64,000 nucleotides of DNA from assembly GCF_949628265.1 (NCBI RefSeq), contig NC_088788.1, forward strand, positions 36,708,959 through 36,772,958. Direction: 5' to 3'. This DNA is from Cloeon dipterum. Its lineage: Eukaryota; Arthropoda; Insecta; Ephemeroptera; Baetidae. Of the stretch, positions 15,230 through 63,248 are shown in pieces (the first letter of the stretch is position 1; every line of letters begins with the position of its first letter). Both the position numbers and the translations under genes were made by a program. The notes below the pieces were generated by a model. That model was not told where the DNA came from. It saw only the letters and a list, made by a program, of their open reading frames with translations, and made no database searches.

Positions 15230-15593
15230 GCATCGATTTAAAGTTAAGAGAGCGCGCCAGAGTAGTTTTGCCGAGCTGGCGAACACCAAAGTTGAGATGA
15301 GAATTTAGCCCGGGGCCAAAACTTTTTGTCGCTATCATATCTTACCAGCGCGCGCCGCTGAATTATTGCCTTTCGCACTCGCCGCCGCCGTTATATTGAC
15401 GCAAACTTTTTCCTAAGTGCTAAAAAAGTGCGCTAAAACATTATTCATCCCGCGTGCCAGGGCCAATAAGTTTCTTTTGCTTGATCGTGCCGTACAATAG
15501 AAACTAATTTGTCATGCCATCCCGCCGATTATTGCAGAATAAACAACAACGCGTGTATTAAATTTGGCTTTCGTTTCCAGGCATGCGACCGAA

Positions 15594-17912
15594 ATGATGT
15601 GGTGGGTGTGGTTGTTCTGCACCGTGTCCGCGGGCTCGACCAGCCTGATCAACCCGAACGCCAACACCCGACCTGGCGGAGGCTTCGGACGCGGCAACTC
15701 GTTCGAGCAGGACCTGGCCGCCGTGTTCAACAGGGTGGCGCATGGCAGCACCGCGGCCCCGGTCAACACGACGGCCGCCCCGGTGGTCACCACCCCCTCA
15801 CCGCCCCCGACCCCGCAGGCCGCGAGCACCGCGATTCCGTCCCTACAGTCCCTAGTGCCGGACCCGCCGGACTTCGTGAACAGACCCCGCTTCAAGCCGC
15901 CGCTGCCCCCCGAATACAACAACCCTTTCGCCGACAAGGGCATCCTGCGGGGCAGCCAGTCGGAAGGGCCGGCGACCGGCAGCGGTCGGCGCCAGAACCT
16001 GCCCCCGAAGCCCCAGATCCCCCTGCCGGACATCCAGCAACGCATTCCGTACCGTCCACCGGACCTGCCGCCTCAGGTGGACCGGAAGAAACCTCTGAAC
16101 ACGCCCTCCAACCCCGACCCGACCGCCAACGACGTCACGAGAATAAACGACACGGACCCGTCCGAGTCGCCGTCGGTGCCGGTGCTGCAGGTTCCCATCA
16201 TCACGCGCATCATGTCCGAGCACCAGACGCCCCAGGAAGACCGTCCCGCGGACAACAAGAGCCAGCCGAAAGTGAGCAACAGCAGTTCGTCGCGCGTGTC
16301 GCTCGACGACGTCAACAAAGACTCGATGATCGACATCAAGTCGCAGCCGACCACCTCGCGGCCGGCGAACAAGGACGAGTCCCCCAAGGTGGTGACGGAG
16401 CAGCCGCCGCGAGAGGCCCCCGAGAGCTGGCCGCAGCAGATCGGCCTGCTGGCCTGGGACATCGTGGTGTACACGCTGGCCAGTCTGTTCGCCCTGCTGG
16501 CGCTGTACACGTTCCTCGTGAGTCCGTTCCGCGCCACCGACAGCCTGATCAGCCACGGCTCGTACTGCTTCCTGCACCTGTTCCTCTTCGTAATCGGCGT
16601 CTCGAGGAGCGCCTTCCTCTTCTACGACGCGTACAACCTGCGCGGCACGTTCATCCCCATCCTGGAGTCGATCGCGCTGGACATGGCGTTCCCGTGCCTC
16701 TTCGCCGCGTTCGCCATCCTCTTCTTCAGCATCGCCCGCATGACCAAGGTGCAGCTGTGCCACTCGACCTTCCAGAGCGCCACCTTCCTCTCGCTGATCG
16801 TCGTGCTGAACATGCTGCTGTTCGGCCTGCTCGAGTGGACCGCGCAGATCCTCGACCTGATCGAGTTCCTGGTGAGCGCGCTGCGCGCCCTGCCGCTGCT
16901 CAGCCTGCTGATCGCGGCGCTGAGCTTCGTGATCGCGTTCCGCTGCATCTACCGCGCCGCCCGCCGGCTGCAGGGTGACGTGCTGCGCGCCAACTTCGCC
17001 AAGATGGGCGCCATGCCGCGTCGGCCGCAACTCAAGCTCGCCGCCAGACTGATCCTCGCCGCCGCGCTGCTCATCCTGGTGCTGTGCCCCGTGCACGCGT
17101 ACGTGCTCTTCAGCGAGCGCGACCTGGTCTTCTGGTGCTGCCAGCTGGCGGCGCGCGTGCTCGAACTGTGCGTGGCCTGCCTGCTGGCCGCCGTGGCCTG
17201 GCTGCGGCGCTCCGAGGTGCCCAACAACCGCGGCCGGCTGTGCTGCTGCTGCTTCGGCAGCTCGGACAGCAAGTCGGTGGACGACCTGTTCCCGGCCATC
17301 TGCAGCAAGAACAACGCCATCCACAACTACAGCCTGCACACCGGCAAGGCGGTGTACGAGCACGCCAACACGCTCAAGCCCATCTACCCGCGGCCGACGC
17401 CGACCTCGACGACGGCGGCCAGCGCCAGCCTGAAGCGGCCGCCCAAGAGCGGCACCATGCCCAGTCAGCGGCAGCAGCACCGCTCGTCGCAGCACATCGC
17501 CAAGCCCTCCGACCCGATGCTGTTCCCCGACGAGCTGCACTATCGGCCCAAAGAGCACGACGCGGCGCCCCAGAGCCGCACCATGGCCAGGCACGAGGCG
17601 CTGACGGCGTTCAACCTCTCGGAGGACTGCTACCAGGTGAACAACCGGCGGTCGGACAGCCTCGGCGACGTGCGGGACGGCCGCGGCAGACGGCTGCCGC
17701 GAGGCAAGGCCCACCACCAGTCCGCCAGGCACTGCTACCAGAAGAGTCTGCTCGACCCGCCGGACTCGCCGTCCAACCTGAGCTCCTACTCGGGCGGCAG
17801 CAGCAGCGACCTCTCCGAGTCGGATCTCACCTCGGGAGGCTACGAGAGAGTCAGGGTGGCCAACCACAACAGGAAAAACGTCAGGGCCGCACGATACCAG
17901 ACGGCGAGTTGA
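15594..17912 (+). CDS. Proline-rich seven-transmembrane protein, PRRT3/PRRT4-like
   Basis: Single-exon coding sequence of 772 residues. The start is the first of two adjacent ATGs (MMWWVWLFCTVSAG, a signal peptide); the open frame continues upstream only through an intron acceptor ending at 15580. Residues about 15-280 are a Pro/Ser/Thr-rich, presumably extracellular region with NTT, NDT and NSS sequons. Residues about 283-536 contain seven hydrophobic segments, including the motifs RSAFLFYDAYN and LDMAFPCLFAAFAI that resemble vertebrate PRRT3/4. The cytosolic tail (about 540-772) begins with a Cys cluster (LCCCCFG) and is rich in Ser, Gln and basic residues. The molecular role of this family is not established. 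The codon third positions are strongly GC-rich, unlike the surrounding DNA. Family assignment rests on motif recall, not on a search. Confidence 0.8.
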   Translation: MMWWVWLFCTVSAGSTSLINPNANTRPGGGFGRGNSFEQDLAAVFNRVAHGSTAAPVNTTAAPVVTTPSPPPTPQAASTAIPSLQSLVPDPPDFVNRPRFKPPLPPEYNNPFADKGILRGSQSEGPATGSGRRQNLPPKPQIPLPDIQQRIPYRPPDLPPQVDRKKPLNTPSNPDPTANDVTRINDTDPSESPSVPVLQVPIITRIMSEHQTPQEDRPADNKSQPKVSNSSSSRVSLDDVNKDSMIDIKSQPTTSRPANKDESPKVVTEQPPREAPESWPQQIGLLAWDIVVYTLASLFALLALYTFLVSPFRATDSLISHGSYCFLHLFLFVIGVSRSAFLFYDAYNLRGTFIPILESIALDMAFPCLFAAFAILFFSIARMTKVQLCHSTFQSATFLSLIVVLNMLLFGLLEWTAQILDLIEFLVSALRALPLLSLLIAALSFVIAFRCIYRAARRLQGDVLRANFAKMGAMPRRPQLKLAARLILAAALLILVLCPVHAYVLFSERDLVFWCCQLAARVLELCVACLLAAVAWLRRSEVPNNRGRLCCCCFGSSDSKSVDDLFPAICSKNNAIHNYSLHTGKAVYEHANTLKPIYPRPTPTSTTAASASLKRPPKSGTMPSQRQQHRSSQHIAKPSDPMLFPDELHYRPKEHDAAPQSRTMARHEALTAFNLSEDCYQVNNRRSDSLGDVRDGRGRRLPRGKAHHQSARHCYQKSLLDPPDSPSNLSSYSGGSSSDLSESDLTSGGYERVRVANHNRKNVRAARYQTAS

Positions 17913-23793: not shown

Positions 23794-26700
23794 TCAGGCA
23801 ATGTGGCTGACGTCATTCATGGGCACGATTTCGCCATTGCTGGAGGTGTCGTCTTTTTTGCTCTCGTCGTTCCACGGCTGCACTTGTCCGGTGGCCACCA
23901 GCAGGTACGGCACCGACGACAGCGCGTAGATGGTGGCCGAAATCAGAAAGATCGCCTGCCAACCACCCAGAGGACCCTGCAACAATTTTAATTTAGCTAA
24001 ATCTTGCTAGGGGGCAAGTTCAATCAATGAACGTACGTAGTTTTGCAGGGCGAATCCCGCCACAGGCGAAGCGATGATTCCAGTCATTGAACCCAGCATG
24101 TTCATCACGCCAGTCAAGCTGCCTAAAAATTTAAAAATCGTTATCTATTTTTCCTTAATTACTTGGTTAGAGGAAAGTTTCAAAGACAAAATCAAACAAA
24201 TAAGCAATACCGATTCGATATGCACAAGTATTGAGGTTTTTAATTCATAAATTTGATAGTAGTGTTTAATAATTGATGGCATTTAACTTATTTCAAACCA
24301 CTATATTTTCTTGAAAAGTGGTCAGATTTCCATTAACATTTTTGGAATGTGCACAGCGAGACAAATCGAATTATGGGTCACTTGTATACTTTTGTGAAAG
24401 CTCCTGATTTTTCCAAAATTTTCCAACAGAAAAGTGTTCTGGAAAAATCTCTAGCAGAAATGCAACAGCTTTTGTCATAGAGATTTAATTTGGCCTAGGA
24501 TTGTTTACATTGAATCAAGCTTTATATTTGATCATTTAAAAAATTTTCTTCCTGGCAAATATTCAAAACAATTTTTTTAACGGCTTTCCCGGAAAATCAG
24601 GGAGCGTCTGTGGTCGGATTTCAATAAATTTAACATATTCGTAATCTGCTTGGCAAGACGAATTGAATGATGTGCCACTTTCATACTTTTGGAAATGTTC
24701 GTGATTTTTCCAAAATTTACCAACAGAAAAGTTCTGGGAAAATCGCGTGCAGAAATGTGATAGCTTGAAGTAGAGATTTAATTTTTCCTATTGGTTTTCA
24801 TAAAATCAATCTTTCTTTTGGCTTTATGTCAAATTAAATAATCACGATCAATTTTAAAACGGCTTTTCCGGGAAATTGGGGAGGGCAAAAACCTTAAGTG
24901 GTTTCAATAAACTTTACATTTTTGGAATCTGCTCATCGAGACGAATCGAATGCTGCGCATTTTTTTATACTTTTGTAAATATTGGAGATGTTTCCTAAAA
25001 TTACCAACAGAAATCGTGTGGCTCTGGGAAAATTGCGCGCATAAGTGTTACGGCTTGTGGTAAAGCTTTAATTTTTTTAAGTTAGTTGTCATCAAATCAA
25101 GCTTCGTTTTAGTCATTTCAGATTTCCATTTTCAGTTTTCCGGAGAAAAATTTACCTGCGAAATTGGGGGCGATGTCGAGAGGATTCTGGAAAAATCCGC
25201 ACGAGAAAGCGCCGACCATTGCGACGGAGAAGGTGAGCACGCCGACCGAGAGCGAGACGTTGCAGCCGGAAAAAGACAAGCAGAGCAAGCCGACGGCGGG
25301 CAGCAGGTGGGCTGCAAATAAAAATCCAAAATCAGCATTGCTATTGTGTTCGCTGACTTGATTTGCATACAAAATCCGACTGAAATCTTGCGGACCACCA
25401 TCAACTGGTATCCTTTCTTTAGTAGGTGGTCCATGACGGTGCCGTAAATCATGGCGAAAATGTACTGACTCAAGAATGGCACGCTGGCCAGAAGCGTATT
25501 CTGCAAACAAGAGGCAGCAATTAGTGAGTGGGTCTGACGGACTGTTACAGAAAAATAACCTGCTGCAAATCAAAGCCGAGCGCGCTTTTCATGTATTTTG
25601 GCGCGTACGTGAGGAGCGTGTGGAAGCCGTAGTCGTTTCCAATGCACGCTATGCAGCCAACAATGAACTGGACTGACGTGAGAGCTTTCAACCAAGGCAC
25701 TTTCGCAGTCTGAAATTTCAAATTAGTGACCGCAAGTGGCACGGGGTACAAAAAGGATAAAATTGGCACCTCTTTTGGTTTCTGTGGAATGTTCTCTTTT
25801 AAGAAGTCGAGCTCTTCTTGAGTGATGGTGGGATGGGAGGCGGGCGTGTCGGCGGCGAGCACCCACCAGGCGACGCACCAGAACACCGAGATCAGGCTTG
25901 AGATGTAGAAAATCGCGTCCCAGCCAAGGTGAGTGCCGATGAAGCCGCACAGTGGCAGACTCACCACTGAGCCGATTATGGCCCCTGAAATAAACAAATA
26001 TGCCAAGACAGCCCAGCGTTATTATTTGGTATTTCACTAATTCATCTTTTGATGCCTAAATATTTGTTCATTGATAACAGTGTTATCACAGAGGTCGTGA
26101 GTTCTTTTTTTCGCAATTGTTTCCCCTGCAAATATATGAAAGGTGTTTGCTTTCTCTTGCGAGGACACAAAACATAATTTCACCTTGAACCGCGAACGAA
26201 ATGAAGCGGTCTCTCTCCTCCAAAGGACACCAGGTTGCCGCCGCGGCGCTGAGGCAAGGGACTAGAGCACCCTGAAAAGAGAAATCTTTTATGCAAAAGA
26301 AAAAATAAATCGCTAATAATATAATAAATAACTTTTGATTTTCTCTAAGAGAGTCATTAACGGAATGAATTAACTTATCGCATATTCAAGGTTGTCAAGA
26401 TTCAAAAGCTTCATGTTAAGAAAACGACTGGCGACAGTCCAAGTCGCATAGCATCGCCACAGGTAGATTGATATCTTTTGTTTACGCGCTCGTGTCTAAA
26501 TTATTCAAATCACGAGCACAAGTGCGGTCTAAATACCTGGAACAAGCCTTGTAGAGATCGAATTACGAGCAGGCAGCTCCAATGCAGTCTGGTGGCGAGC
26601 GGCAGGAAGAAGCACAGCACCCCGTTGGTCACGATGGACACGAAGAAGACCATTTTTGGGCCGTACACTTCGGCGATACGCCCGCCGGGCACTTGCGAAA

Positions 26701-32582: not shown

Positions 32583-35500
32583 TTAATTCTTTTTGCAGGT
32601 AGCGTAGTCTTTGACGCAGGTAGGAACGGGTGGCACCAAACACTTGCAGCTCACGCAGTCACCCGCGATTTCCTGAGGCAGCTCTGTGCCGCGGGCAAAC
32701 TTCAGTGGCCCGAATTCGCACTCTGCAGGTAAGAAGAAGCAGATTAATCATTCATGTGCGTTGTGGTTAGTAAAATTTTATCTCACGGTGATTGTCCTCT
32801 CCTTTGCTGCCATCGGTCGTTGATTTCTTCGTCGGGGACGTCGGAGTAGTTTCAGCACTCGGAGTCACCATCGTAAAGTCATCAGCTGAAACGGACATAA
32901 ATTCTTGAAATCGGGTTTAAATTTTAATCTGATCTGGGGCGTATGATTTCCTTACATAACGAAGGGGTCTTATTATTAAGATATGCATTTGTTTGAAATA
33001 GATTTGATTTATAGATAAAAAATTACCCTCATTCCCAGCTGTAATTTTAAGTTTCTATTTCTTTTCATAATCATTCCAACTTTGTTTGACAAACAATAGA
33101 TGCCGATTATTTATTTATAATTAATATATGCCAAATTGATTTACTCTCAAACCTTTGCATTAAAAATAAAATAAAGTACATAATTCTATCATAATTTTTG
33201 TGACAATGCTTTCATTTCTTCAAAATTAAATACTGTACTTAAAGTTTTAAAATATATAGCTTTAAAAAAATGACATGTACCTTTGAAACACAATGTACAA
33301 TTTTTAAAATGTTCAATAAATAGGAAAATTAATTTCCAGACAAAATTTTAATTATTATTATCATTCAGGACTGTATCAGCTAACAAATTTTAAAAAGCCA
33401 AAATAAAGCTTAATTTTACGAAAAATAATAATGAGAAATTGTAAACCTGTATTAAAAGCAGTTATATTTCAGCTTGTGATTTTTCCAGAGCACTTTTCTA
33501 ATGGAAAATTATTTAAGTGGCATACATAATTTGACTCATCTTGCTAACCTTGTGAATAACTAATTTTGAACCTTGATTGAATGGAATTTGAATATTCTCT
33601 TAAATTTTAGTGTGAAAAAGACAAACTTACGGCAACTCCAGTCGATAGGGCAAATCCTGTTCTTGTAGTAAATGGGCACGCACTGGCGCTTCAGGTAGTG
33701 GCCGTAGTGAAGCTCAAGGTTGCACTTAATCCTGTGGCAGTGGGGCTCACTCAAAGTGCCTGATGGAAATTTTCAACGTCAACAACTACATGAAATTATA
33801 ATTAATCTTACCGTTGAATCCTGGCTGGCAGATGCACGCGAGGGACGGCTCTTTATCAGGATAAAACTTTTGTCCTTCGACGTAATTGTGACCGTCGTAG
33901 CTGCAGTGCGCCACGTTTGTTGCCGTTTCTAAGGTCATGCCGGTGGGAGCTAAAAAATCAAGTAATTTATTTAATGCTATCCACTTTGTCTCTATTAAAT
34001 AAATTAACAAGAAATTAAAATCTCGAGAAAATGCTAAATGAATTTTATTAGAGCATACCGCAATAAGTGCTTTGAGAGCAGCATTTGTCCCTCTGGTACT
34101 GCCTGACGCAATTGTCGTCAGTCAAGGGTCCGTTGAAGAGCTCAGGGCACTCGATGCTGACGCAGTTCATGCGCGGTGCCCTGCGATTCAACAACAACTG
34201 ATGTCATTTTGATTTGCGCGAATCAGCACTACTTACTTATCAAAGGAGGTTTGACTGCATCTGCAGTGCACCAAGCAGTTGGGAGTCGCGTCAGCAGGGA
34301 TTTCTGATTCCACTTCGTACGCCTTGCCTTCGTGGTAGCACTTGTCATCGCTCTGCAGCGCACGGTTGCCTGTCAAATGATAATTATACAATTGTTTTTG
34401 ACAGGTATTTTGTTGGAGGAATGTAAAACTAAGATTGGGAAGGAATTGCAAGTCTTTTTTTAAAATGTTTATTAATATGCTTGGAATTAGTTATTTTATT
34501 TAAAAACCGTCTTTGATGAAGTTTCTGAGCACACCAATTTTTCCGACCAAAAAGTGCAGCGCGACGCGCGTAGCACAAGTGTAGTATAACTTTTTCCCAC
34601 CAAAACAATATGAACATGCGAGAACTGCGCATGCGTCAGAGCTGGCTGGATGTGACAAAGAAGTCATTCGTACAGCAAGTGCTCAAACCAGCTCTGACGC
34701 ATGTGCACTTCTCGCATTCATATTGTTTTGGCGGGAAAAAAAGTTCTTCGTAGCGCTTCACTTTTTGGTCTGGCAAAATATCCACTATATCTAATTCGAC
34801 CCTCGAGTGTGACCCTGGTGTGCTCACAAACTTCGTCAAAGACGGTCTTTAACAATTCTAGTCATACTTTCGATACTTTCTAATTAATTCAATATTTTTT
34901 ATCATTTGTTATTTAAAATTGATTAATATCAGGAACAGAATTAACGCACGAGATGATTTATGTGAATATAAAGGCAAAGTTTGCATGTGCTGCCAGACAA
35001 ATATCGCGAGGATAGAAGAGGCTGTGCTTTAAGTGCAATTCGCCCACGGAAAGAGGCGATGTGTTTGTTTGTAGGCGGAATCCCCAGAGACAAAAAGTGA
35101 CGAGGAGCTAAAGGAAAGCTTTTCCACAAATGCAACAACAGTGACAGAGAAATCCGCGATTTTGTGTGTTTCTTTGTAAACATCAGATCCAAAAGGAAAG
35201 AGGAGCTTGCTTGTTTGTTTGCTTCTCTTTGGAGGAGAGTGCAAAAAATGTGTGTTCATTACCACAATCGTATCTGGAGGCGCAGCATTGGTTGTCTCCA
35301 GAGAAAATCGGCTGGCATCCGAGCTCCTGGTAGTGCGTTAGGTAAACCTCGTTAGGGCAGGCGGCGCAGATTTTACCTGAAATCCGTCATAAATTCATTC
35401 TCTTCAACCTTTCCCAAGCATAAAAATCCGGCTTTTGCTCACTGGATTTCGGCTCGTCCGATTGGAGCTCTGGTGTTGCCGGTGCGGGGGCTGATCGGGG

Positions 35501-38500
35501 GATGCTGCGCTGACCCCTCTTCGGACACGCGGCCTGGCAGTCGGCGAGGGAGACAAAGTTGTTTTTGTTGCCGCCGCAGCCGCCGTATACGAAAGAAACG
35601 CAGTCGTTTTTGGCCTGTGAATTTTTTGCAATGTCATTACACCGTAGACGAAAGAAAATATTTATCAGTCGTAACGCAAACAAAAGATGTGTCATAGAAA
35701 CGGACGCTGCACATACAGCAAAAGGGTATTTTCAGAAAGGGACCAAGGATTTATTGCTTTTCGAATCGGATAAATTGTAGCATTTAATCGTTATTTCCTT
35801 GGTTGGCAAATCAGAGAGGAGGAGAAAGCAAACAAAATAATATTTGTCAACCTCCATATTTAGTCTGGGCCAGCAGCCAAACAAAACAGAGAATGCAGTG
35901 TTTACTCGGAGGAAAGATAAACATAAACTTGCGAAACGCCGGATTATTGTTTTGTTGGTGCGGCCGAGAGGAGTCTGGTTGTATATAGAGTTACCTCCCC
36001 GGAAAAATAAAACGCGAACGCACTGTTCTCATATTGATCGTATGCTAAATGGTAACTCAATTCCTTCAGCAGGAAAAATTCCCCGAGTGCAGGGGACGAA
36101 AATGACGTTACGTATCGACTTTCATTCCCTTTAGCTGTGCAAGGGAAACTCGAGAGAGAATACATATTTCCCTCATTTTTTCCAAGGAAAAGGGAGGTTG
36201 CAATTTTCCACGCAATAAAAAAAGCTCGGCTGCCGATGTCAGAGATCAGAGAGACATGCTATTGACAAAGAAGAAAAGAAACTTTTTTTGTTCCTTTCGC
36301 CTGTTTCAGCGCGATGCAATTGTGGAGGGTGGAGCAGTCAAAGTTTCTTTGCCCTGCGGAACAAGATAATCGGCGGCGCTAACTTGAAGAAGTGATAAAT
36401 AATATTACCGCATCAAAAGCGAATCTGTGCTTGATGGCATCGCAACGGCCGGCGTCTAAAGACAAAAGGCAAGCGTCATCCCCAGGTTTTGCTGTTGTTG
36501 GCACTCCTAAAACACAAGAAAATTGATCAAAATGACACCTCAAAACAAAATTAATCAACACTTTTAAAGTAACCCTGGCCCAAAAGGTTTGAAGGGGGAT
36601 TTCCGCTGCACGAATTCGGAGAAAATGTTAAGGAAATGGCATAGAGATCATGGATAACGAGCAGTTGTAGGTCCAAGGCTGATCCACATTAACGATTCTG
36701 CGCCAGCATGGGCGCAACAATACGCGCGCGGAACACAATGCGCGCCTACATGCACGCACAATGAAACGAAAACTCTCGGCTGCGGCGTTGGCGGTGGCGG
36801 TGGCGCCGGATCCATTGTGAGAGCAGAGCATTACATCATTTTTGCCAGCCGCAATTCTCTGGATCCTCCCTGCTGCTGTCTCGACTGACAAAGTACCTGT
36901 GCGCGTTTAAATCTTGCTGAGTGCGTGTTTGAACAACAAACAATATTTTAAGGCCCGCGCGTATGGCGCCCGCGCGTATTGTTTCACTCGCACACGAGGC
37001 ATTATGTTGATGAGTTTTGTCACCTTGGGATGCGGAGTCAAGAGCGAGGCAGGGTAATTGCACCGTGTTTGCGGAGGAAGCGCACAATTATGCCTTTGAT
37101 TTGATATCTTGGAGTGATTACCCTGCTCACTCCACCTGTGCAAAGCCTCTCGCGGCAATTATCTGTTTAAACTCAATAAAGTTGTGTTTACGACGACATA
37201 ATTGGACTCGTAATGTTCAGCTTGGGGACATTCAGGCTGAAAGATAGACGCACATTTCTACTTTTACGTGATTAACTTTTTCTCACAAGGAGAGCGCACC
37301 TTTCCATCTAAAATTTGCCAAAGGAATAGTTTGGATTTCAATAAACTTTACATTTTTGCAATCTGCTCAGCAATAATGGACCATTTTCATAATTTTGGAC
37401 AACACGCACCCATTAAAATTGTTCTGGGAAGTCGGCACGACCAAACTAGTATGAATTGGTTTCGTACCCTGGTGGGCGAGAGGTACTGGAGGGGGTTGAC
37501 GCCGTTGTGTTCCTCGAGACCACTGTAGCGGTACAACCTGCTTCCAGTGTTTTCTAATTATTAGCATGGGGCTTATAAATTTGTTTTAAAAATACCCCGC
37601 CCGTTTAAAATAAAACCAGGGACGTGCAAGGACACAGCACGCGCCGCCCCCTGATTCGGACATTGCGCCTCATAAATTGATTTCTATACCTAAAGAAATT
37701 TTATTATTCTGGTGAATTCCTTTGTTTTTGTCAAATAGTTTAGATTTTTGTCTGTGCATTACAATTGGGGGGCAAATTATTAGAATGTATATAATATATC
37801 TGATGTACATGACCTCGCCAAAAGTCAATAAAGATGTAATTATCTACATCCGTGGAATGAATCAGTACGAGCGCGGCCTCCAGAAAAAATGGCAGTTTCG
37901 CAACACTCATCTCATCTTCTCTGCAGTGCTAATGATCATAACTCACGTCGCGCGCGCGGCGCAATTGGGCTTGAAACACGTTTTCCTCGTCTGGAGTAGA
38001 TCAATAGTGCTAATTAGCAGCGCGGCGAATAAATTAGGCTGGCTGTTGACACCTGTCTAGCTCGCAATGAAATAATCCTACTGCTCCTCCACACAAATTC
38101 TAATTAGAACGTGCCAGCCGTAGAGACAAAGCCTTGTATTATTCCAGTGAGCTGGTACATTAAGAAAACATAATATTCCGCGGTTGCCGCGGCACCGAGA
38201 GCGGCGAGAGCAGCCACAATTGGCCATGTTATTTATTAATTAGCCTGAAAGACTGGCTTGACTCGTCCAAAGTGCGCACTTTTAGGGTTGCCACTTGCTG
38301 AGTAAACAACGAACCCTTTTGAGCCCGGCGCCAGTTGAGCAAACACAAACTTTGCTCAATTAAACCGACTGAAATTTGGGTTTCCCCGAGCTTAAATTCG
38401 ATCCCTCGGCAGCAAAGGTCGCGTTTCACTTTCGGCCTAAAAAGTGCGCAGAGTGAGCATCTTGGATTACCGGGATTACCGGGATTACCGGTTGCTTGTG

Positions 38501-40099: not shown

Positions 40100-43000
40100 T
40101 CAACCAAATAAGTTAAATGCATCCTTTAGAAATTTTCTGGCTTTGTTATTTTTCCGAACTATTTTCCGTTTCTTCAGTCCTCCCGATTGCGAGGCCCGCT
40201 GTATAAGCCTGATGTCGTTCACTTCCTTCTGAGCTCGCAGCCTGCCTGTATTGTAATAGTCGTTCTTCACCCGCCGATCAGGGTTTCCTGCAAGAATTCA
40301 ATCGCTAAATTTCAAGACCATTTGTGTCTTCATGCTGACCACTAGGTCGTCGTCTTATTCCATTGTTGTTTGCTGTAGTCAATTCGCCTCCGCTCGGCTG
40401 GCCTTGATCAGGGCCACCCTGCGCATAGTCGTATCCGTCGTAGCCATTGTAGTTGTTGTACGTGTCTGGAGTTGTCGGTTCCTCGCCGTAGGAATAATCT
40501 GTATTATAATCATTCGACTCGTAATCGCTGCCAACTGTCGACGTTTTGGGAAGGGGATCGCATTCTTTGAATTTGTTCCTCAAATCGATGCACGCCTGAC
40601 CTGAATTTAATTTATAATTTTTTTCCTGCTCTCGAGAGGGACACTCACTTATAATCGGTTTATTTGGTGTTGGACAGAACTGAAAATATTTATTTTATTC
40701 CATATCAATGCCAGGTAAAAAAAGAAATGCTCTTTTGATTTATCCCTCTCCATATTTACCATGAGCAGAACCTTCCTTACGCACTGCGTGAACACGAATG
40801 GAAACGCCAAATAACTCTGCTTCTGGTTCAAGTCGTCTGTAAATTTACATCTCTTTCAATTTGGCAAAAAGCGGCAGCAAATGCGGTAAAATTGCCTTGC
40901 GACGGCAGCATCAAAGTGAGAGGCTGATTGGAAGCTGCAAAAGAGCGTAAGGTTTTTTTAATATTCGAGTCGGGCGGCTGATGAGGAGCACGCAATCAAA
41001 ATCGATGTTTAATCAGAGTGCGAGGCACAGCAATTTGCACCACAATATGTATAACACAGCTGCTGCTGGAGCGAGTGAGTAATTATTAGAGAAACACCTC
41101 GTATGACAAGGGAGCAATTGACGATGGAGTCTGTCATCACGTCGTCCCACGACGTTTCAATGTTGTCGATGAACTCTTCCACCAGCGTCTTTGTGTACAG
41201 CTCCGGCTTTGTTGCGTCAAACTGAAAGCCGAACGGTGCCATTGTTAGAGTCGAAATTGTTTCCTATTCGAACACCGAGTTTGGTTTGATAATTAACACA
41301 ACTCTTATCCACAAAAACGTCGAGTAGTTAATGCTAACCGAATTCCTCTTTCCAGGTTTGACGTGCGAGAGGCTTCGGTTTGATTGCGGATTGAATATAC
41401 AAGTTATGAATAGCTGTTCAGAATTGCCGCAAATTTAGCGCTTTTGCCCGGGCATGAATAAATACAAAATCAATGCGCCGAGCTAGCATGTTCAGAGGCG
41501 TGCGAAAAACCGTATTTATAGATGGGAAAAACGCGAATCCATCACAAATGCAAATCAGAGGGTGGTTTTGTTATTGCGAGAGAGCAGCAGGAATTTCATT
41601 TGCCACACGATCAAAGGGCTAGTTTCAGCATGGCTGGCAGCTAAACCGTCCTACGCGGTAATATTTAACATGAGTAAATCAAACGCGTCACTCAAACATA
41701 TACGTATTGACAAAATTTACATTTTATGTACATTGTTTGTGCCTTAAATTTCCTTCCTGTGGCAAGATCAAGTTTTCAAAATATCGGTTTGCTTGTAGTT
41801 GCTCAAGAATTAAAATAATTTGCAACCATTTTACTCAAGCCTTTTTTATTTACTAGCCTCTACCTGTGTTTAAATTAAGTTTCTAATTTCTAGATACAAA
41901 AGAACAAATATTAACCACGATTAAAATATTCACTCTTCGACTCATAGAATGAAATTGAGACCAATAGGAGTTGATGGGGTGAGGGGTGAGCACCCCAAAA
42001 ACTATTCAGCTCATCAGGAAAAGTCAAACCAAGTCGAACCGTATTCCGTTTCTACATTTCTTACGCTCAGAACTCGAGATTTGATGCTCACAACATTTAC
42101 AAAAATTAAAAAATTTATATTTTTCAAATTTAAAAATAGAGAAAACGAAGCTAAATGCTACCTTAAAATGTTCACAAAAGTACAGTCGTACCCTGAGATC
42201 ACTTTTAAGGGGGATTCAGATTTTTAAAGTATGACGCTGGTTTTCAAAATCCAAAAACATACCTGGAAATTTTCGAAAATGAGCCTTGGTGACCTTTGAA
42301 CTTGACCAATGGCCTCAAATTTGGTGTTAATTCGATTGGGCTTGACGAGAGGAGCTCAACTTACACATTAACTTTCAAATTGAGTTATTACAGTCTTAAA
42401 ATTCGGCAAAAATATCTCGCAAAACCCGAAAAAATGAAAATTTTGAGGATTGTTTCTCATAGTATGAATTTTGTCAGATTATCTTGAAACCACCGAAATC
42501 GTTCTGTATGACCCCAGATTTTCACTCATACGATTCACCTCTCTATTAAAACAAAAAATTTTGGAACTAAGTCTCCAGCATAGCAAGTTTCTTTCTTTTA
42601 TTTTCCTAGTGAGGACAAAACTGATTCGCGTTCGGAAAAAGAATTGTCTGGCTGGCGCAAGAGACGAATGAATCGAATGGAAGGGGCCTCTCGAAATCGC
42701 ATTTATGCAACGGGCAATGCTTCAACGTCGAGAGGACTGCTTGTCTCGCCGGATAAAAGGGGCCGAGGCAATCTCTGCTCAACAAACAGAGATTCAGCGC
42801 CACGCAAGTGTGGACGGACTGAGCGAGCAGAAATAGAAACACGCCAGCCGCGCGGGAATTGGATAGATGATACGCGCGCGTTTTGCCAAAGTGATTCTTG
42901 AGAGTGTAAATAGGGACTTTGATTAAGAGCGTTTTCTGCTTACCCAGCCTCTTTCCGAGAAGAAGCAATCCATGAATTTCTGTGGAATTCGAATTCACTT

Positions 43001-43927
43001 GTTTAGCTCGCTGATCGATTTCTCAGGCCTCGCGTCTGTGCAAATATTGTAAAGGCCAGTCATGGATGAAGAAGGAGCACGAAAAAACGCTGATTTTCGC
43101 TTTTCCACCCGGTTAAACGGATTTAATGAAATGTTTATCGTACGCGCGCTCAGCTTTTCATCCACGCCCGCATTTCCGCACTCACCACCGCCATTGGCAC
43201 TCGCCGCACTGCAAACATTTTTTTTAATTCACTCAATCGCTTGGCAAAAGCTCTTTTACAATCAATTCTGTTCTTTGGGCTCGCCGACAGGTGCAAAACG
43301 TACTCGAGCAACACGGTTCTGTAGTACGTGTAGTCGTTGGCGTTTGAAGTGCGGTTCGTGCACACACGCAGCTCCGTTTCCATGAAGTCGAAAATCTTCG
43401 GGTGGTTTTGGCAGCACAGGCTAAGCTTCTGCAAATTAATCAAATACATTAAAAAAACCGTCTCATCATGAGATATTTAAATTATCTTTTCGCCTTGATA
43501 TCGAATTAATCTCATGCTTTCTTCTTTTCCAGTTAACGTATATATGTATTCACCCCAAAAGGCTGCTGAGAGCATGACTCGGCCAAGGATGGCGTCGACT
43601 GTTCATCCGGTAGACCCTCGTATGGGTAGCTGCTGCTATTTTAACGATGAGACGCTGAGAATACACCTTTTTCATGTTCAAACCTGCTTGTTGGATTCCT
43701 CAACTTGACGGGCTTTCGGCAGCGGCCAGGGACGCGACACCTTTTGCCTTTGACCACGCGCTGTGCCCTTCTCGGGCCGATGTTACTTTCGGTTGGCGCC
43801 CCTTTATTCTGCAATGTTGCACTTTGCTTATGATAAAATTTTAATTTGTTGCAACACTCACTTCGAGTTCGGCACTGAGCGCAGACGCCAGCAGGAAGAT
43901 AGTCAGAATTGTCAAAATAAGATGCAT
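40100..43927 (-). CDS. Plus-C-like odorant-binding protein with long low-complexity tail
   Basis: Eight exons on the minus strand: 43927-43862, 43428-43186, 42979-42944, 41221-41098, 40836-40760, 40679-40649, 40600-40340 and 40287-40100. All phases agree; the product is 341 residues. A signal peptide (MHLILTILTIFLLASALSA) precedes a cysteine pattern typical of Plus-C OBPs: LCC (about 26-28), ELRVC, IDCKRAF, MDCFFSERGW (about 106-115), SIVNC, FTQCVRKVLLM-FCP (the Pro after Cys is diagnostic), ACIDLRNKFKEC ending near 206. OBPs carry hydrophobic ligands in sensillar lymph or other body fluids. Unusually, about 135 residues follow the last Cys: first Tyr/Asn/Asp/Gly-rich (NYNGYDGYDYAQGG), then strongly basic (LKKRKIVRKNNK). 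The 36-base exon 3 equals in size and position an exon of the three OBP genes on the other strand, supporting common ancestry. Confidence 0.75.
41930..42480. repeat. Long copy of dispersed repeat family 2, reverse orientation
   Basis: Contains GACCAATAGGAGTTGATGGG, GAGGGGTGAGCACCCCAAAA, AAACCAAGTCGAACCGTATT and CAGAACTCGAGATTTGATGC, then GCTCAACTTACACATTAAC. The same blocks appear reverse-complemented at about 50460-50900. It lies in intron 3 of the minus-strand OBP gene. Confidence 0.7.
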
Positions 43928-45387: not shown

Positions 45388-46817
45388 ATGACCGTCAAAC
45401 TGCAAACCAAATTGATTTCTGCCTTCTTTGGTTCCATCGTGGTAAGTTACGCAATTCGCTTATTTCGGCAACGCGTCGTTACAAATTAAGTAAAAATGGC
45501 AGTTGGCAATTATGCTGTGGGACCGTGGCACCGAACTCGGTTACGATGACAACCCTCTCAACTACAGGGAGGAAGGCAAGCCGCACCAACAGCACTTGTG
45601 CGAGTAATTAAATTCTTGTCGCAGGTGACGAGAGGGTCATTCCTCGCGGCAAACGAAACGTTCCTGTATCAAGACTCAATGAAGCCTACAATTTGCTTAT
45701 TGTAACTGTCAAAATTGCGTGTTGCCAAAATTTTAGCTCAATGAAAACTGCAGGCGGCTGATGCGTGCTGTCCGAACATGCCTAAAATCATTCCAGACGA
45801 CGCCCAAGTCCAATGCGATTCAGGTTTTTGTTTATCCCGCCTTGTTATCAATTCGAGTAGTTAAAATTATTTTGCACAGTGTTGGGGGGAGCCGCGATCG
45901 GCAAGAAGCAAAGAAAGAAAAACACCAGGAATAAGGCAGGAAACCTGAACTTCTTCCAAAGGCTGGGCAAAAGATTATTAGGCTCAAACACCAACGCCAA
46001 TACTAATAGCAACAACAATAAAAACAAAAATAACAAAAATAACAAGAACAACAAGATCAACAAGAATAATAAGAATAAAGTTGCTAGACAGGGCCGTCAA
46101 ACAGCAAAGCAACAGCGTAAAATTCAGTTTTTTTAACCTTGCTCAATAATTAATTTGGTTTGCAGAAAAAATTCTGCTCTCATCGGTGGTGAGGAAAAAT
46201 CAGATTTCGATAGCTTTCAACCGAAATAAAACTAAAAACCCGAATTTTTCAGTGCTATTCAGCATGCATATTCACTTACATGGGCTGGGTTAGTATAGAA
46301 ATCGAGTTAATTCGCTCATTTTCTTGTATTGAAACGTGTCAGTTGAACGATTCGGCCCTGGAGCTAGACGCCATTGAAAGGGACTTTTTGGACACCGCGA
46401 GCCAACCAACCTGGGACACCAAAATCCAAGACGGTCTGTACACTTGCGAAGAGCCCTCGGCTTGTGAGTTTTGTCGTACTCAATAGGGAAACCAAATGCA
46501 AAAACAAAAATCGAAGGTGCTACGCCAGAGGTGATCACCGTCACTCAAGGCTATTGTTCAATCAAGCCTACCATCCTTTTGAACTGCATCAGGAAGCAGC
46601 TCGTTTTGGTATAGTCTTTAGTTTAACATCTTTTTGTTTAAGTAACAAATTAATTACGTTTCATAGAGTTGCCCAGATCCCGTCAAATGTAATTTGCTCT
46701 AATTAAAAAATTGCAACGCTCAGTTAGCTAATTTTGTTTTTCCAAACAGCTACAACTTGCAACAAGAAATTGGCGCAGCTCAGGAGGCAAGACATGACAG
46801 GAACTTTTAAAAATTAA
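45388..46817 (+). CDS. Plus-C-like odorant-binding protein, array copy 1
   Basis: Eleven exons: 45388-45441, 45503-45575, 45625-45701, 45754-45823, 45880-46116, 46166-46188, 46253-46288, 46343-46463, 46517-46608, 46667-46688 and 46750-46817; 290 residues. Exons 1-2 give a hydrophobic signal (KLISAFFGSIVLAIMLW). The cysteine frame is DACCP (about 72), VQC (about 89), CYSACIFTYMGW (179-190), LYTCEEPSA-C (about 225-231), GYCSIKP, LLNCIRKQL, SCP (263-264) and TTCN. The CxxxC, CP and spacing fit Plus-C OBPs. Exon 5 (about 92-170) is a basic Asn/Lys-rich insert ending GRQ...R. Exon phases match copies 2 and 3 throughout. Intron 2 is only 49 bases and starts with GC (AAG|GCAAGC); the paralogs have GT at the same place. 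The poly(A) signal is at 46882. Confidence 0.75.
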
Positions 46818-46881
46818 TGAAGGACATGATACGATCACTTCACGTTTGATATTTGGTTCAACTGGAATTGGCAACCAGTAC

Positions 46882-46887
46882 AATAAA
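46882..46887 (+). terminator. Poly(A) signal, OBP array copy 1
   Basis: AATAAA 64 bases after the stop codon. Confidence 0.65.
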
Positions 46888-47201
46888 AATTCATTCTATT
46901 AGTAAACCTACAGTGTTATTTATTAATATCCCAGATGAAGACTATGAATTAAATCAGAGTCATGTATAGGGAATTCTTACAGTCAAGTTGCAAAAATTCG
47001 AGTTATATTTTTTTCAAGCTAAATCAGAAATTTATGATATTGAAATTATATAAAACGTACACGTGTGTGTCATGGAAACTAATGAAGCAATATACGAAAT
47101 GGGTTGCACAGCGATGGCCGTGTTTTACATCCTGTCTCTCTGCAGGTTGTGTTCGGGTTTTACTTTTCTATCAAAGCCATACGGGGAAATTCCGCGTTGA
47201 C

Positions 47202-48475
47202 ATGACTATTCCTCAGCTTCAGACAAAATTGCTCGTCGTTTTCGCTGGATCTTTATTGGTGAGTAAAAAATGTTTAATTTATTTTTTCCTTATTTCTTAC
47301 GCAATCTAAAACAAATCAGGTGGCCGTGTATCTGTGGGACCGCGATGGAAGTGGATTCCACGTACCGCCAAACCCACTCAATTACGTGGAAGAGGGTTTT
47401 TAATATTTAATTAACTTTCAAACTAAGTTGTGACATTGATTTCGATAAGGTGACGACAGGGTGATGCATCGCTCGAAGCGAAACGCCCTTGGAAACCGAC
47501 TTCAGGCTATCTACCAGCAATTTTCTGTAAGATATAAGATACCGAAGCACAATTCAAATAAACGCAATGAGGGGCATTTCGTAGAAAGCGGATTCGTGCT
47601 GCCCCATTCCGCAGTTCATCCCCAATGATGCGCATTCGGCGTGCAGACAATGTAATTTAATTGTTCCGAGTTTGTTGAGTAATTTTTAATAGGTTAGATT
47701 AAAGTCATGAAATTGACGATGCAAAAAGCGAAGAAAAACGCCTACTGGTTCAACCAAGTCAAACCAGTTTTGCTTTCAAGTACCTCTAAAAAAACCAGCA
47801 AAAAATCAGGCCGGCAAACCGGAGACTCTCGTATGATTGATTATACATTGAATTGAATTGAATTTTTACTCAACCAGACTAAAATACAGAAAAAGTGACG
47901 CTTGACTTTGTGGTATATGATCAGCTTAGTTTTAAAACGCGTAGAGTTGATTTAAGATTCTTCTGAATTTCAGTGCTACTTGGATTGCATGTTTACCTAC
48001 CTGCATCTGGTAGTCCTATAATAGAAATGGACCATTTCTCGAAAAATAACTTGTAAAACTGACACAGATAAATAATGCCGCGATGAATCTTTCGATGATA
48101 GAATATATGTTCGTGGAAACCAACACGATGGACGCTACGTGGGAACCGAAAATCAGGCAGGCCGTCTACACGTGCGAACAACCCTCGGCGTGTATGTATA
48201 TATTATTAAAATTAAATCTCAGGCCCATCTTAATTGGCTCAAATGGCAGGTATTTCACCTGAAACTGTCAGGGTGAACAAGAAATTCTGCTCTTTAAAGC
48301 CTACAATCATGTTCAACTGCGTGACCCAGCAACTGTACGCGGTACGTCTCGATCCAAAAGAAATAATTGATTGCTAATTTGTATTCCACCTCTGCAGAAC
48401 TGCAAGCAAAAGAACACGTACACGTGCAACACTGCCATGGCGCAGGTCAGAAAGATGAACGTGTTTAACAACTGA
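47202..48475 (+). CDS. Plus-C-like odorant-binding protein, array copy 2
   Basis: Ten exons: 47202-47258, 47320-47395, 47450-47526, 47585-47651, 47705-47830, 47890-47912, 47974-48009, 48068-48191, 48250-48341 and 48398-48475; 251 residues. The signal region is TKLLVVFAGSLLVAVYLW. Conserved parts are NPLNYVEEGDDRV, DSCCP (about 73-75), CYLDCMFTYLHL (143-154), VYTCEQPSA-C (about 190-196), KFCSLKPTIMFNC, NCKQKNTYTCNTAMAQVRK. The basic insert (exon 5, about 93-134) is the shortest of the three and ends GRQTGDSR. Its acceptor (GATTAAAG) is weak, so the 5' edge of this exon is the least certain point. The last intron of copies 1 and 3 is absent here: exon 10 reads straight through that junction. 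AATAAA at 48502 follows. It starts 385 bases after copy 1. Confidence 0.75.
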
Positions 48476-48501
48476 TTTTATTTGTACAGATGAAGTGTAA
48501 A

Positions 48502-48507
48502 AATAAA
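48502..48507 (+). terminator. Poly(A) signal, OBP array copy 2
   Basis: AATAAA 26 bases after the stop codon. Confidence 0.65.
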
Positions 48508-48855
48508 AATTATAAAACTGTTTTGGCTGTCTATATTTCTCAAGGTGTTCAAACTTTGTTGTACATTATCTGAATTAAAGTTGATACTTGAGATCACGAG
48601 CTCGTCTTACTTCTTTAGATTTTTCTATCCATTTTTTTTTTCACACGTCCACGAAATGATGTTTATGTGTTTGTTTCGAGCAGAAACTGTATTGCGGATG
48701 CAAAAGTGCGTCATAGATGGAAAAGTCGGCCATATTGCAGAGCATAATTCCCATCCTGCCGATACCACCGCGTCGAGAGAGGTTTCAGTGTGACCTAGTT
48801 TAATCAGAATCGCATCCAGAACAAACGATTCGTATTTCATCAATATTTTCCTGCA

Positions 48856-50271
48856 ATGTTTGCCGTGAGATTGCATAAGAAATACGCCGTCATTCCCCTA
48901 GTGACTTCGATAATTGTATATATATAGTGCTCGGTTATTCAACAATTTTTATTTCCACTGCGATTTCAATTCCCAGATTGCAATTGCACTGTGGGCACGA
49001 GACACCGGAGAAAACCTCAACCCTCGAAACTACAGAGAGTTTGGTATGAATTTTACTAATTTTGAATATAAAATAAGAACGGATCCGACCTCTTAGGGGA
49101 CATTCGCGTTCTTCCCCGCGATAAAAGGCAAAGCTACTCATACAAGTTGCACGATGTTTACACAAAATTCTACGTATTATTTGTCATAGTTTGTTCTGTG
49201 TCTTCAAACTGACAGTTAATTTCAGAGAGCGAGTCAGTGCTGCAGAAAACCCATGCCGTACCTTCTGCCGGAGGATGGTTTGACATCTTGTCCGCCGGCA
49301 GACGGTAAAATTAATTCGATTATGACTCGCCGAATTAGCACTGATTTGCCAACGAAAATTTACAGCCAACGGTGCGTACGTGACAAACGCCAAGAAGAAA
49401 GTGGGACAGCGGAAGAATGCGAATCAGAATAAAAGGCAGCGCAACACTAGTTGGTTCCAGCAAATTTCTAACACCCTGTCAAGAACGGTCCGCAGAGCTA
49501 CGAACAAGGGGAAAAAAGCGAAAAAAGCTAAAAATGCAAACCAAAATATTAGACTTGGACGTCAATCTGAGGCTGCTCGTAAACAGATTTCAACTGTTTT
49601 TAAATTTACCATTAAACATATAATTATTTTACAGAAAAGATTTCGTTGAAGTTTGTGGTACGCTGGAGAAAAAGGTTTTTTTCTATTAACTCAATTATTT
49701 AATACAATTTGTAGTGCTATAATGACTGTGTCTTCAACGAGATGGGATTGGTAAGGAAGAGCTAAACCGTATGAGTAATAATTTCTATAAAAGTTTGGCC
49801 ATCCCGAAGATGAACGGATCCTCGATTGATTTAGACGCGGTTGAGCAAACGTTTCTCAGTACGAACCAGGACTCTGGGTGGGCTCAGTACATCCAAGACG
49901 CTCTCTACACTTGCGAGGAACCTTCTGCCTGTATTCATTTTATATTTTCAAGCGATTTTCCAGTTAAAAGAGTATGAATTAGGTGCCACTCCGGAATCTC
50001 TTCTTGTGAGTGGATTTTACTACAGCATCCGACCGACGATTTTGATGAACTGCATGTACAAGCAACTCCTCAACGTAAGTTTGCTTTTTAATAAGCATTT
50101 TATTAGGCTACAAAATCTGCTCTTTAATTATAGAACTGCGATCGCAAACAAAGTGAGCAATTCTACAACGGGTCGATATCAATTTTATTTCAAATTTTTA
50201 CAGCCACAGAATGCAACACGGCCTTTTCGCAAGTTAGGAAGCTCGACGTGTTCAAACAACACCGCAGTTAA
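48856..50271 (+). CDS. Plus-C-like odorant-binding protein, array copy 3
   Basis: Eleven exons: 48856-48915, 48977-49043, 49097-49173, 49226-49304, 49366-49578, 49635-49657, 49715-49750, 49810-49930, 49983-50074, 50134-50152 and 50204-50271; 284 residues. The signal region is KYAVIPLVTSIIAIALW. Conserved parts are NPRNYREFGDIRV, SQCC (about 72), CYNDCVFNEMGL (174-185), the classic OBP CxxxC-FxxxG block, LYTCEEPSA-C (about 220-226), SIRPTILMNC, NCDRKQTTECNTAFSQVRK. The residue that is Cys in copies 1 and 2 (YCS/FCS) is Tyr here (GFYYSIRP), so one Cys is lost. The basic insert (exon 5, about 95-165) is Lys/Asn/Arg-rich and ends GRQSEAAR. It starts 381 bases after copy 2, and AATAAA at 50341 follows. 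Confidence 0.75.
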
Positions 50272-51912: not shown

Positions 51913-53993
51913 ATGTCCAAGCCGCCCAACGAGAATCTGCCGGCCTACAAGCTGGTGGTGGTCGGCGACGGAGGCGTCGGCAAGAGCGCCCTCACCATCC
52001 AGTTCTTCCAGAAGCTCTTCGTCACCGACTACGACCCCACCATCGAGGACAGCTACATCCAGCACACCGAGGTCGATGGAAAATGGTGCATCCTCGATGG
52101 TAAAATACCTTTTCGCTCTTTATTCTACAATAAAAGGTTAAATCAGTAATTTTTCTAAATTATTTTTAATTAAAATAAATCAATTAAAGTGGACACCCTG
52201 TGGGCATGGGTTCTTAGACTTGGACGAAATTTGCTGGAAGGGTTGACCTAGTAATGCTATGTCGCACCCTAAAATATTGGGCAAGAATTCTTAAAATTGC
52301 CTATTAAAAGAGGCTCAAAGTTGCGGGTTGTTTTAAAAGGAGATTTTAACAGAAATGAGGTAGATAAAAATTGGTTTCAAAAATGTTCTTGAATCTAACA
52401 AGTTGCCCTTCGTAAGTCAAAGGTCAGAATAACAAAAACAGAAGCGAATCATTAAAAAAATTTGACTATCAAATTTTTAAAATCCAAATTGCCAAAACAT
52501 TCAGCTCATAGTCGGGGAAAAACAGATAAAAAATTACTGATATTTGATCCTGTATTGCTTTATTGAGAAAATTTAGATAAAAGTTCAAAATCGTATTTTT
52601 TTCACCCTAAAAATCATGATTTTTTTGGAAAAGTACAATTTTTGTGCAGATTAAGAGCAGTTTATACCCAAATTCAATTGGAAATAATTAATTTCGACAT
52701 TTTGAGGTTGGGGGCTGAGACCAACCCCGAACCCTCCTGGGAGTGGAAATCTTTAGTTCAGTTTACTTTTGGCCAGAACTGAGCGTTCTTGGTGTCGTTT
52801 TTTATGTGTCATTTTGTCACGAGAATCTCAATTTCATCGTTTCTCACTCCCTTTTATCGTAATAGCACGAGTAAATAAATAAAACCGTCTTCGTGTTTGC
52901 GAGTATCGGGCGATCATTTAAATTAAAGGGTTTGGTGCGCTCTAGGAATGCTGGAAATTAAATTTATTTTGGGTGATCTGGATCTCTAATTTGAATATCC
53001 AATGCAAATGGTAATTCAAGTGACCCCATAAATAACATTCAAAGCAATTTCCCAGCGCACAGCCGTAAAATTTATTCTACAAAACGTGGTGTAAAAGAAT
53101 TAATGAATAAACCAAATCTTTACTGCTGGAGTATCGAATAAAATTTGAATTAGTTGCTTAATTTCAATTGCAGTTCTGGACACGGCCGGCCAAGAAGAGT
53201 TCAGTGCCATGCGGGAGCAATACATGCGCAAGGGCGACGGTTTTTTACTAGTCTACTCTGTCACCGACAAACAGAGCTACGAAAACATAGTCAACTTCCA
53301 CACTCAAATCCTCAGGGTGAAGGACAGGTGATGCCTTTAGTCTTTTCTTACAGAGGAATAAAACTGAATTTGATTTGCAGAGATGTGTATCCCATGCTTT
53401 TGGTAGCAAACAAAGTGGATTTGGTGCACCTGAGGAAGGTGACTGAGGAGCAAGGTCGGGAGCTGGCGCACCGACTCGGCATTCCCTACATTGAGACCAG
53501 TGCCAAGGACCCTCCGCTGAACGTCGATGCCGCTTTCCAGGAGGCAAGTCTTGACGAAATTTATTTAAATTTTGAAATAGGCGACCACTCAATATGAAAT
53601 TTATTTAATTTGTTTATTTGAAATCATTTCTGTATAATTAAGAATGCAAATTTTACTCGGTACATGAATATTTCTCATTATTTGTTATATTCTTTTGTAT
53701 CTTTTGTGTTCGTTGTTTGCAATCAGATGGGATACACCTGTGTGTACTATTATGCTGAAAGTCAAATTAATTGAATTGAATTGCCGAACATGTGCCGAAT
53801 TAAAAATGCTAATAATAATTTTACAAGAAGCCCATTTTGATAACACACATTTTTCGCATAATTGTATATTTTTTGTGCAATAAACACTAATAGTAAGATT
53901 TATTCCTCGCAGGTGGTTCGGATCATTCGGAACCAGCCAGCTTTCGACCTGGAAAAAGGCCGGAGGGGTCGTCGGAGGTGTTGCATTGTATAA
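51913..53993 (+). CDS. Mras: Ras-family small GTPase, M-Ras-like
   Basis: Four exons: 51913-52099, 53174-53327, 53381-53543 and 53913-53993; 194 residues. All nucleotide-binding motifs are intact: GDGGVGKS (18-25), effector loop YDPTIEDSY (40-48), DTAGQE (65-70), NKVD (124-127), ETSAK (152-156). [17 protein letters not shown] and the long YKL start resemble vertebrate M-Ras more than H-Ras, R-Ras or fly Ras64B. A polybasic stretch (GRRGRRR) precedes the prenylation box CCIV (191-194), so plasma-membrane anchoring is expected. M-Ras acts in the SHOC2/Raf branch of MAPK signalling. Intron 3 begins with GC (GAG|GCAAGT), a GC-AG intron; the joined frame is exactly colinear with the family. The start chosen gives an 11-residue N-terminal extension before YKLVV. 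The poly(A) signal is at 54788. Confidence 0.93.
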
Positions 53994-62584: not shown

Positions 62585-63248
62585 ATGGTCGCCCAGGTAA
62601 ATATCCAATTAACTGCATAGCTTTTCCAATTATAACAATTAAATTAAATTTTAGATCGCCCTCGCCGTTCTCGCCCTGGCCGCCGCCGTGTGCGCCGCGC
62701 CCGGTGTGCCCCTCGTGGCCGCCGCCCCCGCCTACGTGAAGGCCGTCGAGCTGCACGCTCGCCCTCACTACTCCTTCAACTACGGAGTGAACGACCCCCA
62801 CACCGGCGACCACAAGAGCCAGTCTGAGACCCGCGACGGCGACTTCGTCAAGGGCCAGTACTCTCTGCTCGAGGCCGACGGCACCACCCGCACCGTCGAC
62901 TACACCGCTGACCCCATCAACGGCTTCAACGCCCACGTCACCAGGTCCGGACACGCCGTGCACGCCACCCCCGTTAAGGCCTACGCCTACGCCGCTCCCG
63001 CCGTCGTCAAGACCGTGGCTCCCGTCGTCCACGCCGCCCCCGTGGCCTACGCCGCCCCCGCCGTCGTCAAGACCGTCGCCCCTGTTGTCCACGCCGCCCC
63101 CGTCGTCGCCTACAAGGCCCCCGTCTACGCTCACGCCGCCCCCTTGGCCTACGCCGCTCCCATCGCCTACAAGGCTGGTCATCTCGCCTACGCCGGTGCC
63201 TACGCCGCTCCTCTGGCCTACAAGGCTCCTCTCGCCTACCACTACTAA
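62585..63248 (+). CDS. RR-2 cuticular protein with Ala/Pro/Tyr/Val repeats
   Basis: Two exons: 62585-62596 (MVAQ) and 62655-63248; 201 residues. The signal peptide [18 protein letters not shown] spans the intron. The RR-2 chitin-binding domain (about 41-104) is very typical: [55 protein letters not shown]. The C-terminal part consists of AAPA/AYAAP repeats, including an exact internal duplication of [17 protein letters not shown]. Such repeats are common in insect cuticle proteins. Codon third positions are almost all G or C, as expected for a highly expressed gene. Poly(A) signal at 63446. Confidence 0.95.

Follow-up and report, generated by a model that had tools for sequence, protein, structure and literature searches.

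What do three tandem genes on contig NC_088788.1 of the mayfly Cloeon dipterum (assembly GCF_949628265.1) encode, and is their array young or old? The genes lie in a window of 64,000 nucleotides (nt), positions 36,708,959 to 36,772,958 of the forward strand, which is the whole stretch of DNA analyzed here and from whose first letter window coordinates are counted. We propose, with a probability of about 0.68, that they are paralogs from ancient duplications and code for secreted Plus-C-like odorant-binding proteins (OBPs), which would be made as furin-cut precursors. What the sequence itself shows is the structure of the genes, their homology, the pattern of conservation and the charge of the proteins.

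Gene models and exon architecture

Exon models for the three genes, all on the same strand, were rebuilt by hand and then translated, and the frame runs open from ATG to stop in each of them:

45388..46817, forward strand: gene 1, predicted Plus-C-like OBP precursor, 11 exons, 290 amino acids
47202..48475, forward strand: gene 2, predicted Plus-C-like OBP precursor, 10 exons, 251 amino acids, without intron 10
48856..50271, forward strand: gene 3, predicted Plus-C-like OBP precursor, 11 exons, 284 amino acids

Exon lengths are 54-73-77-70-237-23-36-121-92-22-68 nt in gene 1, 57-76-77-67-126-23-36-124-92-78 nt in gene 2 and 60-67-77-79-213-23-36-121-92-19-68 nt in gene 3, where exon 8 starts at 49810 with frame, phase and alignment all consistent. 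Exon 3 (77 nt) and the following three exons have the same length in all three genes:

46166..46188 (gene 1), 47890-47912 (gene 2) and 49635-49657 (gene 3), forward strand: exon 6, 23 nt
46253..46288 (gene 1), 47974-48009 (gene 2) and 49715-49750 (gene 3), forward strand: exon 7, 36 nt, which holds the cysteine motif C2-x3-C3
46517..46608 (gene 1), 48250-48341 (gene 2) and 49983-50074 (gene 3), forward strand: exon 9, 92 nt

Nine introns are common to the three genes, equal in order and phase. A tenth is present in genes 1 and 3 and missing from gene 2, which is most simply read as a loss, because genes 1 and 3 share this intron with gene 4, a dispersed copy described below. Introns are 49–64 nt long across the three genes (59 nt for intron 7 of gene 3), and all are GT-AG with one exception: intron 2 of gene 1 (45576-45624) is GC-AG, its counterpart in genes 2 and 3 being GT-AG.

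The hand-built models confirm most of the layout given in the original prediction, namely three genes in one orientation, nine introns common in position and phase, and exons of 23, 36 and 92 nt. The near-equal spacing it described also stands, with gaps of 384 and 380 nt in place of its 385 and 381. This regularity is no evidence of a preserved repeat unit, however: when compared with each other, the two intergenic stretches showed no likeness beyond chance (best E-values 0.62-0.63), and the spacing as the relic of one repeat unit was rejected. Separately, the first 33 nt past the stop of gene 2 (48476-48508) are 79% identical to their reverse complement (E 0.001) and may form a hairpin at the 3′ end of this gene.

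A conserved leader and a basic insert

Nowhere is the protein as well conserved among the three window genes and gene 4 as in a leader of 31–34 residues between a signal-like N-terminus and the OBP domain:

45509..45656, forward strand: gene 1 conserved leader, residues 21-53, ending RGKR, split by the intron at 45576-45624
47326..47481, forward strand: gene 2 conserved leader, ending RSKR, split by the intron at 47396-47449
48983..49128, forward strand: gene 3 conserved leader, ending RDKR, split by the intron at 49044-49096

When genes 1–4 are aligned over gene 1 residues 21-53, 15 of the 31 ungapped columns are invariant and mean pairwise identity is 62%, compared with 31% in the signal region, 28% in the insert described below, 41.5% from exon 6 to the end and 29% in the segment after the cut (gene 1 residues 54-91). 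This conservation sits in the protein letters only: in leader codons, the proportion of non-synonymous differences (pN) is 0.293 vs 0.734 for synonymous ones (pS), and of 61 pairs of four- or sixfold degenerate codons for the same residue, only 21 agree at the third base. All four leaders end in R-x-K-R (RGKR, RSKR, RDKR and RSKR in genes 1–4), a furin-type protease site; in gene 4 the motif occurs once more, as RLKR, inside the insert.

Given this arrangement, a signal peptide, recognized by eye, would route the precursor into the secretory pathway, and a furin-type convertase would then cut after the conserved R-x-K-R and remove the 31–34-residue leader. In its mature form the protein would adopt the OBP helix bundle, held by disulfides, and carry the additional cysteines that the Plus-C type has near both termini, as the profile match reported below suggests, while the long basic loop from the first cysteine cluster to C2 would probably take no part in the ligand pocket. 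Judging from the family, the ligands of the mature protein would be small and hydrophobic and would be bound in an aqueous secretion.

The greater conservation of the leader (62%) relative to the mature part (38%, insert excluded) in genes 1–4 was reached by a fraction of 0.0004 of 20,000 permutations, which supports a distinct leader. Two points weaken this case: the leader boundaries were set after viewing the alignment, with columns taken as independent, and R-x-K-R is found in neither of two distant relatives, g5 (a partial model) and g6. It is unlikely, on balance, that the leader is no propeptide, i.e., that the hydrophobic N-terminus acts as a signal anchor that keeps the proteins in the membrane, or that the leader is kept as an extra N-terminal arm. 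The hydrophobic stretch does enter the conserved LWxR and, apart from an invariant Ala, shows by eye nothing like a strong signal-peptidase site. However, R-x-K-R is kept in all four genes and is followed directly by poorly conserved sequence, as expected at a cleavage boundary. More speculatively, the cut could free two products, an OBP and a bioactive leader peptide, or the leader could silence the OBP until cleavage, both of which we hold to be unlikely. If such a dual-product precursor existed, the leader peptide, not the OBP, would be under the tightest selection, and the OBP would be anchored to anionic surfaces by its basic loop.

This loop corresponds to exon 5:

45880..46116, forward strand: gene 1 exon 5, basic Lys/Asn-rich insert, net +21 over 79 amino acids
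47705..47830, forward strand: gene 2 exon 5, basic insert, net +9 over 42 amino acids
49366..49578, forward strand: gene 3 exon 5, basic insert, net +18 over 71 amino acids

Neither the R-x-K-R leader nor this insert had been noticed in the original prediction. The inserts of the window genes hold 0–1 acidic residues, the cores of the proteins are near neutral (−4 to +4), and the insert is net positive in all six modelled genes (genes 1–4, g5 and g6; +5 to +21). A basic insert in all relatives was rejected, since a relative at C1:32.2 Mb is, by eye, mostly uncharged or acidic there. Hydrophobic-moment shuffles likewise led us to reject an antimicrobial-like amphipathic helix as a general feature of exon 5, since the observed moment was reached in a fraction of 5,000 shuffles that is 0.02 for gene 3 and 0.069 for gene 1, but 0.55 and 0.66 for genes 2 and 4. 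We infer that the insert is a flexible surface loop; that it binds anionic surfaces is speculation.

Relatives, age and OBP identity

The proteins of genes 1–4 served as queries against 190.1 Mb of genome in 10 contigs (here C1, C2 and so on); all counts of relatives from these searches are lower bounds. These four retrieve one another, and at least one close dispersed copy exists, gene 4 itself (C5:22.290-22.292 Mb). It has 11 exons, including those of 77, 23, 36 and 92 nt, with phases as in the window genes, and it groups with gene 3 in a six-sequence tree with a support of 74, too weak to date its departure from the array. Among at least the matches listed for the full-length queries, no additional array member lay nearby. 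In a six-frame profile scan of the window (frames of at least 20 residues), all 13 matches below E 0.001 fell inside the three genes; the profile was built partly from these genes, and the scan shows only that the window has no other strong member.

More distant relatives retain parts of the same structure. At C3:18.26 Mb, the partial model of g5 has seven exons and keeps the 92-nt one, and the model runs its 36-nt unit into the following exon even though a donor-like gtaaat stands at the end of this unit. In g6, the introns around the 36-nt C2xxxC3 exon have the same phases as in the window genes, and the protein passes the Pfam cut-off for OBP47_like (33.4 vs 27 bits). This gene is the sole modelled copy of a three-copy, minus-strand cluster of OBP47_like type at C5:14504000-14516000 (C5:14.504-14.516 Mb), with copies ~5.4 kb apart and a splice-flanked 36-nt CxxxC unit in each; its protein also has a strongly basic C-terminal tail. 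A strict scan for the 36-nt unit missed genes 1 and 4, whose donors are GTT, and gave one unchecked extra match. Besides the further relative at C1:32.2 Mb, a sequence at C3:3.6 Mb scores above the PBP_GOBP cut-off (28.8 bits) and, by eye, resembles the classic type. Weak matches were found at C5:26.09 Mb, C2:0.29 Mb and C3:9.34 Mb (E 0.27-1.75), at C2:23.13 Mb (E 0.07) and at C1:35.74 Mb (E 0.09), where no OBP-like exon was recognized by eye. Because the microexon architecture occurs in gene 4 and in distant relatives, it is, on the evidence of these sequences, a wider and older trait, and its presence in a dispersed copy on C5 indicates that the array did not give rise to it.

The array itself is old. 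Protein identity among genes 1–3 is 40–45% in pairwise comparisons, with pS of 0.70-0.77, i.e., saturated, and pN of 0.40-0.43. Since silent sites are saturated and pN lies below pS, the three genes are old duplicates under net purifying constraint, although saturation of synonymous divergence means that a precise ratio cannot be given. These results agree with the relationship by duplication that the original prediction had drawn and lend no support to its expanding array with fast protein evolution. A chemosensory array that is expanding at present, with rapidly evolving proteins, would fit the tandem layout, the level of identity and the large OBP expansion reported for a mayfly in passages of PMC7250882. 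We nevertheless consider it very unlikely, given the saturated silent sites, pN < pS, the architecture common to gene 4, and the finding of one close dispersed copy and no further member nearby (both counts being lower bounds).

The assignment to OBPs was examined with a core profile of five genes (genes 1–4 and g5), from which leader and exon 5 had been removed. Of its eight matches in the PDB, the mosquito Plus-C proteins 3pm2 (E 1.4e-4) and 4ij7 (E 1.7e-4) ranked first and second, and the N-terminal CC..P..C block aligned to both; the remaining matches were three D7 proteins, the OBP 6jpm and two weak nucleoporins. The reversed control gave five PDB matches with no OBP among them (best E 0.0058). 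With mosquito Plus-C OBPs on top and a control free of OBPs, the label of Plus-C-like OBP is therefore supported, in line with the original prediction, which had named this type and cysteine layout and had suggested a comparison by hidden Markov models. The full-length profile of the three genes had five PDB matches: OBP 6jpm (E 0.0067), 3pm2 (E 0.62), 4ij7 (E 3), a histone and a myosin. In Pfam, where PF22651 (OBP47_like, cut-off 27 bits) and PF01395 (PBP_GOBP, cut-off 22 bits) were tested, two of the five cores match the former (best E 8.8e-6) and two the latter (best E 8.8e-4).

The cysteines point the same way. All three window genes have C2-x3-C3 and C4, an adjacent CC before C2 with another Cys 13–15 residues on, and one more Cys (C6b) 7–8 residues past C6a, for a total of 10–11. 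In genes 1 and 2, the spacing is C2-x3-C3-x41/42-C4...C5-x9-C6-x8-C6a, which comes near the Plus-C arrangement given in passages of PMC5054612.

Several results weaken this assignment. In E-value, the strongest match of the reversed control lies within ~40-fold of the top real one. Full-length gene 3 stays below both Pfam thresholds (PBP_GOBP 17.9 vs 22 bits, OBP47_like 15.9 vs 27), the full-length scan found no OBP family for gene 1 and no match for gene 2, and the core of gene 1 alone found no family in Pfam, even with the threshold relaxed to E 10. As to the layout, C5 is missing in genes 3 and 4 (gene 3 has Tyr there), a Pro follows C6a in gene 1 only, and C6c was not found in genes 1–4. 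Because of these departures in C6c, in the Pro after C6a (two of three genes) and in C5 (gene 3), the genes are best called Plus-C-like, rather than Plus-C members; some Plus-C OBP50a sequences likewise appear without C6c in passages of PMC5054612. That the genes belong to some other cysteine-rich secreted family, convergent on CxxxC...Cx8C, is hardly credible: the absent or sub-threshold full-length Pfam scores would suit it, but the core profile ranks the two Plus-C OBPs at the head of its PDB matches, in an alignment that takes in the extra CC..P motif, and the exon structure is common to g6, an above-threshold OBP47_like gene.

Neighbouring features and known OBPs

Other features of the window include a possible neighbouring gene on the opposite strand, overlooked in the original prediction, and several open frames:

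40308..43927, reverse strand: tentative divergent OBP-like gene, partial model, with one exon holding CC..P and with FCPTP and C-x9-C at its end
35387-35731, reverse strand: Kunitz frame over the Pfam cut-off
53154-53597, forward strand: Ras family frame over the Pfam cut-off
25545-26018, reverse strand: MFS transporter frame over the Pfam cut-off
62655-63248, forward strand: insect cuticle protein frame over the Pfam cut-off
15543-17912, forward strand: single open frame of 789 amino acids with several hydrophobic stretches, no Pfam match at E 0.1

The neighbour at 40308-43927 has a signal-like exon and an acidic Tyr/Asp-rich tail, and its middle exons do not join in frame. Its joined 3′ pieces beat 500 of 500 shuffles with two profiles (E 8e-4 vs 0.062 with six genes, 0.0045 vs 0.19 with five); they matched no OBP family in Pfam, and its single frames reached E 0.15 or worse in the profile scan. 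We tentatively regard it as a putative divergent OBP gene.

Among known proteins, the best profile matches are those of Anopheles gambiae under PF22651, 3pm2 and 4ij7 (with 4kyn), which we take to be AgamOBP47 and AgamOBP48, respectively; in the PDB they are listed as AGAP007287-PA and Odorant binding protein-8. The window genes have in common with them the CC and third Cys before C2, C2-x3-C3, a similar C4 spacing and further C-terminal Cys. Unlike them, they add the R-x-K-R leader and a basic insert of 42–79 residues between the N-terminal Cys cluster and C2. As far as passages of PMC5054612 describe the Plus-C OBPs of Anastrepha and Drosophila, the Cys framework and the two adjacent Cys before C1 are common to both, and C5-x9-C6-x8-C6a is matched by genes 1 and 2. 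The window genes differ in having 10–11 Cys instead of 12, no C6c, a basic insert, and a Pro after C6a in only one of three genes.

For Cloeon dipterum itself, passages of PMC7250882 report a large expansion to 191 OBP genes in a compact genome (180 Mb there, 190 Mb here), and the window genes may already stand in that catalogue. The term "Plus-C" is absent from its main text. Another mayfly has 10 OBPs, all in Classic or Atypical clades, according to passages of PMC13205551. Neither a cleavable leader nor a basic insert is mentioned in the passages of these two papers. Judged by title and the start of the abstract, none of the literature matches listed concerned furin-processed OBPs, which is weak evidence of absence.

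An OBP is usually described as a signal peptide plus a carrier domain. A subfamily with a cleavable leader as its most conserved stretch would suggest proteolytic gating of activity or secretion or, alternatively, that OBP genes also code for peptides. The common microexons, for their part, may mark Plus-C-like genes where sequence profiles are weak.

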